Below are positions 25,339-63,483 of a stretch of 64,000 bases of DNA, piece by piece; position 1 is the first letter of the stretch; each line of letters opens with the position of its first letter. A program made the position numbers and the translations under genes. The notes beneath the pieces were generated by a model. That model worked only from the letters and a program-made list of their open reading frames with translations. It was not told the origin of the DNA and ran no database searches. Source of the stretch: Oscillospiraceae bacterium (GTDB lineage Bacteria > Bacillota > Clostridia > Oscillospirales > Oscillospiraceae); the NCBI GenBank assembly GCA_017412765.1, contig JAFPWN010000004.1:1-64000 (forward strand). The letters run 5' to 3'.

Positions 25339-26772
25339 ATGAAGGAATTTATGGATAAGGACTTTGTCCTTACTAACGACACCGCAAAGCATCTTTTCCA
25401 CGATTACGCGGAGAATATGCCTATCGTCGATTACCACTGCCATATCTCACCGAAGGAGATCTATGAGGACAGGCGCTTCGACAACCTCGTTGAGGTCTGG
25501 CTCGGCGGTCACAATCCCGACGGCACCTACTTCGGAGACCACTACAAGTGGCGCGTAATGCGCTCCAACGGCGTGCCCGAGGAGTACATCACCGGCGACA
25601 AGCCCGCTTACGAGCGCTTCCTCAAGTTCGTCGAGAGCCTTGAGATGGCTATCGGCAACCCGATGTACCACTGGTGCAACATGGAGCTTCGCCAGTTCTT
25701 CGGCTACACGAAGCCCCTCACAGTCGAGAACGCTGAGGAGTGCTGGAATTACTGCAACGAGAAGCTCCGCACCGATCCGAACCTCACCGTTCGCGGCATC
25801 ATCGCCAAGGCGAAGGTCGCAATGGTCGGCACCACCGACGATCCCATCGACTCCCTTGAGTGGCACGAGAAGATCGCGGCGGATCCCTCCATCACCGTCA
25901 AGGTATGCCCGTCCTTCCGCCCCGACAAGGCTATAAACATCACAAAGCCCGGCTTCACCGATTACATGGCGAAGCTTGCCGCCTCCGTCGGCAAGGAGAA
26001 GCTCCAGAACTTTGAAGAGGTCTGCGCCGCTCTTACCGAGAGACTTGAGTTCTTCGCAAAGATGGGCTGCCGCGCCTCCGACCACGGCCTTGACTACATC
26101 CCGTTCCAGAAGTGCTGCCCGAAGTGCGCCGACAAGGCGTATCAGAAGGCTATGGCAGGCGAGGAGCTCACCGTTGAAGAGGCTGAGAAGTATCAGACCC
26201 AGCTCCTTCTCCACCTCGGCAGAGAGTATCACCGCCTCGGCATCGCCATGCAGCTCCACTATTCCTGCAAGCGCAACAACAACGAGCGTATGTATGAGCT
26301 TCTCGGCCCCGATACCGGCTTCGATATGGTCGCGCAGAACACCTGTGGCGGCGCGATCGCGGACTTCCTCAGCGCGCTTGACAAGACCGGCGAGTGCCCC
26401 AAGACCATCATCTATTCGCTCAACTCCGCCGACTTCGATCAGATCGGCACCCTTATCGGCTGCTTCCAGTCCGACGAGGTTCCCGGCAAGATTCAGCACG
26501 GCTCCGCATGGTGGTTCAACGACACCAAGACCGGAATGCAGGCTCAGATGACGAGCCTTGCCAACCTCGGACTTCTCGGAAACTTCGTCGGTATGCTCAC
26601 CGACTCCCGTTCGTTCCTCAGCTACGCGCGCCACGATTACTTCCGCAGGATCCTCTGCGACCTCATCGGCAAGTGGGTCGAGAACGGCGAGTATCCGAAT
26701 ATCGACGCTTCCCTCAAGAAGATCGTCGAGGGCGTTTGCTACAATAACGCCGTCAGATATTTCAATCTGTGA
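25339..26772 (+). CDS. uxaC: Uronate isomerase
   Basis: A 477-residue amidohydrolase-fold isomerase converting glucuronate to fructuronate and galacturonate to tagaturonate. Metal ligands appear in IVDYHCHISPKEI (about residues 27-39); YHWCNMELRQFFGY, GTTDDPIDSLEWH, RASDHGLD and the late LTDSRSFLSYARHDYFRRI are typical. ATG 25339, with GAGGT upstream, gives the normal length. No taga/altronate genes (uxaA, uxaB) are present, so only the glucuronate branch is complete here. Confidence 0.97.
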   Translation: MKEFMDKDFVLTNDTAKHLFHDYAENMPIVDYHCHISPKEIYEDRRFDNLVEVWLGGHNPDGTYFGDHYKWRVMRSNGVPEEYITGDKPAYERFLKFVESLEMAIGNPMYHWCNMELRQFFGYTKPLTVENAEECWNYCNEKLRTDPNLTVRGIIAKAKVAMVGTTDDPIDSLEWHEKIAADPSITVKVCPSFRPDKAINITKPGFTDYMAKLAASVGKEKLQNFEEVCAALTERLEFFAKMGCRASDHGLDYIPFQKCCPKCADKAYQKAMAGEELTVEEAEKYQTQLLLHLGREYHRLGIAMQLHYSCKRNNNERMYELLGPDTGFDMVAQNTCGGAIADFLSALDKTGECPKTIIYSLNSADFDQIGTLIGCFQSDEVPGKIQHGSAWWFNDTKTGMQAQMTSLANLGLLGNFVGMLTDSRSFLSYARHDYFRRILCDLIGKWVENGEYPNIDASLKKIVEGVCYNNAVRYFNL

Positions 26773-26785
26773 TTTTTCCGCAATT

Positions 26786-26808
26786 AAGAGCCTTTCCTTC
26801 GGGAAAGG
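26786..26808 (+). terminator. Left half of an interrupted uxaC terminator
   Basis: AAGA followed by GCCTTTCCTTCGGGAAAGG. The matching CTCTT arm extension and T-tract that should follow are found only after the second copy at 26970-26998, so the original terminator was split by the 161-bp element. Confidence 0.7.
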
Positions 26809-26969
26809 ATCGATGCGTAGACAAAGTCTCCGCATCGAACAAATTTGCTCTCACAGAGAGCAAATTCGGCGCCTGAGGGCGGGTTATGCGACGTGAAGGG
26901 GCCTCTTGGCCGGCCCCTTCACAGATCCCCGCCTCCTTTATTTTACGCGGTATTTTGTCTGCAATCTTT
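26809..26969. repeat. 161-bp hairpin-rich element, copy 1, inserted in a terminator
   Basis: Closely matches 63298-63458, which is also 161 bp. It contains three hairpins: CGATGCG/CGCATCG (26811-26837), a GCTCTC/GAGAGC stem around 26846-26866, and GTGAAGGGGCC/GGCCCCTTCAC (26893-26922). The tail has GCCTCCTTTA, resembling the 16S rRNA 3' end, and ends near TTTTGTCT. A 19-bp piece of terminator hairpin is repeated directly on both sides (26790-26808, 26970-26988). No frame is carried, so a mobile, non-autonomous element is inferred. Confidence 0.75.
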
Positions 26970-26998
26970 GCCTTTCCTTCGGGAAAGGCTCTTTTTTT
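26970..26998 (+). terminator. Right copy of the uxaC terminator
   Basis: A GCCTTTCC-TTCG-GGAAAGGC hairpin followed by TCTTTTTTT. It is still a complete intrinsic terminator despite the insertion. Confidence 0.85.
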
Positions 26999-63012: not shown

Positions 63013-63285
63013 ATGCACCCGTATTTTGAAAAGCTCTCACCGCATGAGATAAATAAATCAACGATCCTGACAGGCTCGATCGGCGCCGCCTTCGACGACT
63101 TCCGCTATCGCATAAAGCCCGACACGAAGGAGGGCAGGGTTTACTGCGCGACGTACTCCGTTCTGTCCTACGAAAAAGCGCGGGACGTTGAGGAGCGCGA
63201 ATACGCCTACGATGAGGCGGGAGTAGAAGAAATGAAGCTCTGGCTTCAGGAACAATATGAAAAATACCTAAAAAGCCGCGAGTGA
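63013..63285 (+). CDS. Small hypothetical protein
   Basis: A 90-residue protein of unknown function. The middle reads FDDFRYRIKPDTKEGRVYCATYSVLSYE, followed by an acidic helix (ARDVEEREYAYDEAGVEEMKLWLQEQYEKYL). Probably soluble and co-transcribed with the esterase. ATG 63013 has AAGGAA upstream. Its last four codons and stop (KSRE) lie in the terminator hairpin that was duplicated by the adjacent element. Confidence 0.75.
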   Translation: MHPYFEKLSPHEINKSTILTGSIGAAFDDFRYRIKPDTKEGRVYCATYSVLSYEKARDVEEREYAYDEAGVEEMKLWLQEQYEKYLKSRE

Positions 63286-63297
63286 TCGCGGCTTTCA
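63273..63297 (+). terminator. Terminator hairpin overlapping a stop codon, left copy
   Basis: AAGCCGCGA / TCGCGGCTT with loop GTGA that contains the TGA stop of the preceding gene. The identical 25 bp recur at 63459-63483. Confidence 0.75.
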
Positions 63298-63458
63298 ATG
63301 CGTCGACAAAGTCTCCGCATCGAACATATTTTGCGCTCTCTGAGCGCAAAATATGACGCCTGCGGGCCTGTTTGCGACGTGAAGGGGCCTCTCGGCCGGC
63401 CCCTTCACAGATCCCCGCCTCCTTTATCCAACGCTTTTTCCTTTTTGTCTACAGTCTG
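63298..63458. repeat. 161-bp hairpin-rich element, copy 2, flanked by duplicated terminators
   Basis: Same length and layout as 26809-26969: ATGCG/CGCAT hairpin with GACAAAGTCTC, a second hairpin GCGCTC/GAGCGC whose bases differ from copy 1 on both arms so pairing is kept, the shared GTGAAGGGGCC/GGCCCCTTCAC hairpin (63379-63408), GCCTCCTTTAT and an end near TTTTTGTCT. It is bracketed by 25-bp direct repeats made of the local terminator. Confidence 0.75.
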
Positions 63459-63483
63459 AAGCCGCGAGTGATCGCGGCTTTCA
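63459..63483 (+). terminator. Terminator hairpin, right copy
   Basis: Exact duplicate of 63273-63297, immediately after the 161-bp element. The T-tract is short (TTTCAG), so it is weaker than most terminators here. Confidence 0.65.

Follow-up and report, generated by a model that had tools for sequence, protein, structure and literature searches.

A doubled terminator behind uxaC

What is the gene-less DNA that separates two copies of one terminator hairpin behind uxaC, and what determined how much of the target was duplicated? In the window (the whole stretch of 64,000 nucleotides analyzed here), the 19-bp sequence GCCTTTCCTTCGGGAAAGG forms a direct repeat, at 26790-26808 and again at 26970-26988. 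AAGA lies to the left of the left copy only, and CTCTTTTTTT to the right of the right copy only. The preliminary description had recognized both this doubled terminator and its split arm extensions, and had read them as a 19-bp duplication around a 161-bp insert. The repeat and the insert are real, but their boundary is likelier to lie one base further on: the A at 26809 has probably arisen from C by mutation, in which case the original duplicated unit was GCCTTTCCTTCGGGAAAGGC (20 bp) and the insert spans 26810-26969 (160 bp). The features of this site, and of a second site in the window, are as follows.

26786-26789, forward strand: AAGA, the outer extension of the hairpin arm in the original uxaC terminator, present only on the left (from sequence)
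26790-26809, forward strand: left copy of the duplicated terminator hairpin, GCCTTTCCTTCGGGAAAGG plus A, the A probably being a mutated C (from the direct repeat)
26810-26969, forward strand: MITE copy 1, 160 bp, diverged, gene-less (from about 64 left ends genome-wide)
26810-26825, forward strand: left terminal inverted repeat of MITE copy 1, TCGATGCGTAGACAAA (from comparison with other copies and with IS ends)
26954-26969, reverse strand: right terminal inverted repeat, degenerate in MITE copy 1; the consensus is TCAGACTGTAGACAAA on the minus strand
26970-26989, forward strand: right copy of the duplicated hairpin, GCCTTTCCTTCGGGAAAGGC (from the direct repeat)
26990-26998, forward strand: TCTTTTTTT, arm extension plus T-tract from the original terminator, present only on the right (from sequence)
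63273-63294, forward strand: left hairpin copy at MITE copy 2, AAGCCGCGAGTGATCGCGGCTT
63295-63459, forward strand: MITE copy 2, 165 bp, near consensus
63460-63481, forward strand: right hairpin copy at MITE copy 2, AAGCCGCGAGTGATCGCGGCTT

The gene upstream of copy 1 is uxaC, encoding glucuronate isomerase (NF002794, 585 bits), as had been proposed; the gene downstream resembles TldD proteases, with a score under the curated cut-off. There is no gene inside 26810-26969, in agreement with the earlier reading, and the open reading frames that cross the insert are only mechanical extensions. An Rfam search of the 64-kb window returned a single match, a tRNA, and no RNA family matching the MITE.

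At the corresponding uxaC site, the sister species G003 has one terminator hairpin, of different sequence, and no MITE. An unrelated short repeat with palindromic ends, TAATACTAACCCC...GGGGTTAGTATTA, lies at this G003 terminator (L124, about 1040-1290) and at a second G003 site (L142), and is possibly another MITE family.

A high-copy family in the source genome

We searched the source genome (2.28 Mb in 74 contigs) with the window insert and found 40 related places, 83-91% identical except for the insert itself. Searches with the core of the MITE gave about 64 left ends and 59 right ends (the latter count including some ends of the partner IS described below), and none in the reversed control. 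Given related places and core matches throughout the genome and none in the control, the window insert is a real repeated element and not a chance sequence. In all, the genome holds about 65 copies of a gene-less element of ~160-166 bp. Their consensus runs TCAATGCGTCGACAAAG ... TTTGTCTACAGTCTGA, with a typical length of 164-166 bp and a GTMGACAAA core at both ends.

Many contigs break off inside MITE copies, as expected for a high-copy repeat. An assembly artefact is ruled out: a large number of copies are internal to contigs and have unique flanks, and a second genome shares some of the sites. The family is short, non-coding and multi-copy, with terminal inverted repeats common to an IS, target duplications and empty sites, all of which define a MITE. 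The earlier suggestion that the insert is a mobile element is thus borne out by its copy number, its terminal inverted repeats and its target duplications.

One copy (L052, on contig C40 around 25941-26097) lies between two GAATACGATTGCAGATCGTATTC copies, beside a tRNA-like 3' half comprising the T-arm and acceptor end. This half lies downstream of a tRNA cluster, and ARAGORN called no tRNA there.

Whole-hairpin duplications and empty sites

When the copies were compared side by side, most were found between two copies of one terminator-like hairpin that differs from locus to locus. We scored duplication by ungapped comparison of the two flanks. At a threshold of 16, a clear whole-hairpin duplication flanked 38 of the 51 MITE copies in which both flanks were readable, as the preliminary description would have it; true duplicated pairs scored 16-31, while none of 442 mismatched flank pairs scored above 12. 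The duplications were direct in 34 cases, and the other 4 scored better inverted.

In three copies (L010, L011 and L021), the loop of the second hairpin is reversed relative to the first. Their sequences read as one hairpin having been flipped during or after insertion, and simple gap repair does not account for the reversal.

The remaining 13 of the 51 copies include truncated or rearranged ones and a few at non-hairpin sites. At a minority of copies, one hairpin has been lost. Four copies (L027, L031, L046 and L057) occupy A/T-rich non-hairpin sites with duplications of 6-9 bp. Hairpins are therefore preferred but not obligatory, given four or five such insertions, and the short duplications seem to reflect a second, ordinary insertion mode of the enzyme. 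The proposal that the element targets terminators is supported, with one refinement: most copies do lie in terminator-like hairpins, but the target appears to be the hairpin rather than termination as such.

We compared the flanks of the source-genome copies with about 1.2 Mb of G003, which belongs to the same genus (flanks mostly 74-97% identical) and itself has this MITE in dozens of copies. Nine orthologous sites (L006, L008, L009, L013, L022, L053, L058, L067 and L074) are empty in G003 and have a single hairpin there, where the source genome has the element and two hairpins; such empty sites had been anticipated by the preliminary description. At three further sites (L045, L047 and L050), the MITE is present in both genomes.

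The possibility that the hairpin is part of the element is ruled out, as each locus has its own hairpin and empty sites have just one. A related account holds that the element deletes or replaces hairpins, and that those beside it either were brought in by the element or arose through gene conversion afterwards. In staphylococci, IS1272, which belongs to the family of the partner IS, does replace hairpins, and in a few copies (L070, L225 and L290) the left and right hairpins are unlike. Nevertheless, the flanking hairpin is locus-specific and is the same as the one hairpin at the empty site. It is therefore host DNA that was duplicated, and we give the replacement account almost no weight.

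A likely IS1182-family partner

A likely autonomous partner with ends of this type, also foreseen in the preliminary description, was found in the source genome. Seven contig ends carry a longer element with TCAGACTGTAGACAAA at both of its ends, set in terminator hairpins, and three pairs of IS junctions (C41 with C42, C52 with C49, and C51 with C39) have the same hairpin on both sides. The right MITE end is identical to both IS ends; the left MITE end is an imperfect match, and the two elements share little beyond the terminal 16 bp.

Only the two ends of this IS are assembled in the source genome, its middle being unassembled; they code for the N- and C-termini of a transposase and contain no stops. 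Full-length relatives from the genus (L092 in genome G029 and L100 in genome G024) have one open reading frame of 532-537 aa, matching ends and whole-hairpin duplications. The transposase of L092 belongs to the IS1182 family (NF033551, 436 bits against a cut-off of 270; PF13751 and PF05598 domains), and it is on these genus relatives that the assignment of the incompletely assembled source-genome IS to the family was made. From its ends and its targets, this IS1182-family element is likely to be the MITE's autonomous partner and source of transposase.

The end of contig C68 and the start of contig C43 (L072 and L021) share the same left flank and hairpin, which leads into the IS in C68 and into the MITE in C43. 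This points to polymorphism at the site within the sampled population.

With an alignment of four transposases as query, we collected 80 related loci from species genomes, together with four plasmid loci. Of the 59 IS copies with both ends placed, in Bacillota and on one Vibrio plasmid, 52 lie in a whole-hairpin duplication of 20-38 bp; the fraction is approximate, as the end motif misplaced or missed some IS ends (e.g. L218, whose duplication is visible), and it counts loci rather than independent lineages, some genomes giving many copies. Among the hosts are Bacillus and its relatives, Lysinibacillus, Streptococcus, Lactococcus, Tetragenococcus, Lachnospiraceae, an Acholeplasmataceae bacterium and Acetoanaerobium, besides the Vibrio plasmid. 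Several of the copies without a duplication have unlike hairpins at left and right, the pattern expected from recombination between copies. ISCfr1 (28% identity) and a divergent genus member (L305) had no hairpin-sized duplication when examined, so the behavior looks restricted to a clade.

Duplication length follows the hairpin

We next consider what sets the length of the duplication. A fixed stagger predicts that the distances from the hairpin center to the left and right cuts are anticorrelated, while cutting at the feet of the hairpin predicts that these half-lengths are equal and co-vary. We compared the two distances directly, in place of a pairing test based on boundaries, which the terminal TC/GA of the element blurs. 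For the MITE, the cuts were equidistant from the hairpin center within 1 nt in 34 of 38 copies, with half-lengths from 10 to 16.5 nt that were strongly correlated (r = 0.97 for the 34 symmetric copies; 0.46 for all 38). The asymmetric exceptions (L033, L034, L062 and L074) have hairpins that are unlike on the two sides. The MITE boundary lay 0-2 nt from the foot of the stem in nearly all copies. For the IS, with duplications of 20-38 bp, left and right distances were equal within 1 nt in 49 of 50 copies (r = 0.99).

The hairpin is thus centered in the duplication, whose length is set by hairpin size and not by a fixed stagger; in MITE and IS copies alike, the test rules out a duplication of fixed length. 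A structure-blind transposase with a fixed stagger of ~25 bp could still be imagined if only insertions in terminators survived selection, the hairpin duplication being a by-product. Duplication lengths do cluster around 25 bp, and intergenic terminators are tolerant sites. But the duplications span 19 to 38 bp, the cuts of both elements are symmetric about the hairpin center where anticorrelated half-lengths would be expected, and selection for harmless sites would not place cuts within 2 nt of the stem foot. We consider this explanation very improbable.

A folded core shared across genera

MITE relatives in five other genera of the host's family keep a folded core, and those in genomes G080, G093 and G258 likewise lie within duplicated hairpins. 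We aligned the core from 16 sequences of six genera (window 63294-63457, L112, L113, L119 and others). In the alignment, 98% of cells were paired, compared with 35-47% in slid controls. Changes on both sides, i.e. compensatory ones, were seen in 11 of 35 pairs, and the unpaired stretches were conserved too. The folded core may either be a functional RNA in 3' UTRs or reflect a fold that is needed for transposition.

These data bear on the idea that the MITE is mainly a host-adapted RNA element, whose core acts in 3' UTRs (e.g. on mRNA stability) and whose spread was favored by benefit and not only by transposition. Retention of the same fold in other genera, with its paired changes and its excess of pairing over the slid controls, speaks in its favor. 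Against this, most of the sites compared are not common to the sister species (three are filled in both, nine are empty), the MITE has no Rfam match, and the fold could serve transposition equally well. A mainly adaptive RNA is therefore unlikely, though less so than the other alternatives above.

A model for insertion at hairpin feet

What can be read from sequence comparison is a MITE family with shared ends, whole-hairpin duplications, single-hairpin empty sites, and a hairpin that is centered in a duplication of variable length. The reading that we favor, and hold to be very probable, is a MITE of the IS1182 family inserted by a structure-reading DDE transposase that cuts at both feet of a hairpin. 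The transposase would recognize a DNA hairpin, usually an intrinsic terminator, presumably in extruded form, either as a cruciform or in single-stranded DNA during replication. DDE strand transfer would then attach both 3' ends of the element at the hairpin's two 5' feet. The cuts would thus be staggered by the length of the hairpin, and gap repair would leave one complete hairpin on each side. For the MITE, transposase would be supplied in trans by the IS1182-family partner.

The downstream hairpin copy keeps the T-tract, which is lost from the upstream copy; T-tracts here are often weak. The downstream hairpin may thereby maintain termination, with the element becoming part of the 3' UTR, and it is plausible that insertion leaves termination working. 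This would make terminators a low-cost niche, as the target is copied and not broken, and may explain about 65 copies of one MITE in a 2.3-Mb genome.

We also think it fairly probable, with less assurance than for the MITE itself, that a whole clade of IS1182-family DDE transposases measures its target by DNA structure. By cutting the two 5' feet of an extruded hairpin, its members would let the target set the duplication length and would copy the terminator, and the MITEs riding on them would have colonized terminators and become structured 3' UTR RNAs. Because the duplication length follows the target hairpin, the proposal that a transposase can read extruded hairpins inside living cells becomes open to direct test, and dozens of natural insertions supply the data. 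Such insertions could even serve as a natural map of the hairpins that extrude in vivo.

Comparison with known systems

Group IIC introns also prefer intrinsic terminators. Such an intron is ruled out here: there is no intron RNA in the Rfam search and no reverse transcriptase or other open reading frame, and terminal inverted repeats and a target duplication are present. REP/BIME elements are short, palindromic, high-copy, intergenic and tied to hairpins, and some insertion sequences target them. Unlike these, the hairpins that flank our element are host terminators, different at each locus and duplicated by the insertion. The element resembles other bacterial MITEs in being short, gene-less and high-copy, with terminal inverted repeats common to an autonomous element and a target duplication. 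In most of them, however, the duplication is short and fixed, whereas here it comprises the whole target hairpin and varies with it. For most DDE elements, duplication length is fixed by the enzyme.

Direct repeats listed in ISfinder for the IS1182 family range from 0 to 60 bp, and hairpin-sized duplication may account for part of this range. The partner transposase matches the model and domains of this family (NF033551; PF13751 and PF05598), in which hairpin-sized duplication was seen here in one clade only. Our searches of the open-access literature on IS1182 turned up no previous account of either hairpin-sized duplication or a MITE of this kind. What appears from our sequence data to be new is an IS1182-family MITE with a structure-set target duplication; hairpin targeting was already established for the family member IS1272.

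According to a review, as cited in PMC5678879 and PMC4923244, some IS1182 members target palindromes. The closest parallels are IS1272 and TnSha1 of staphylococci, which likewise have an IS1182-family transposase and 16-bp ends and target inverted repeats or terminator hairpins without a sequence consensus (PMC5678879, PMC4923244). IS1272 deletes or replaces the hairpin and leaves no duplication (PMC5678879, PMC4923244), whereas here the whole hairpin is duplicated; our sites did not exhibit hairpin loss of this type, the hairpin being single when empty and double when filled. Duplication of the whole stem-loop was drawn by Wan et al. only as hypothetical pathway b of their model (PMC5678879), and the arrangement which that pathway predicts is the one found here, with the stem-loop duplicated in full and the length of the duplication following the hairpin (r = 0.99, 20-38 bp).
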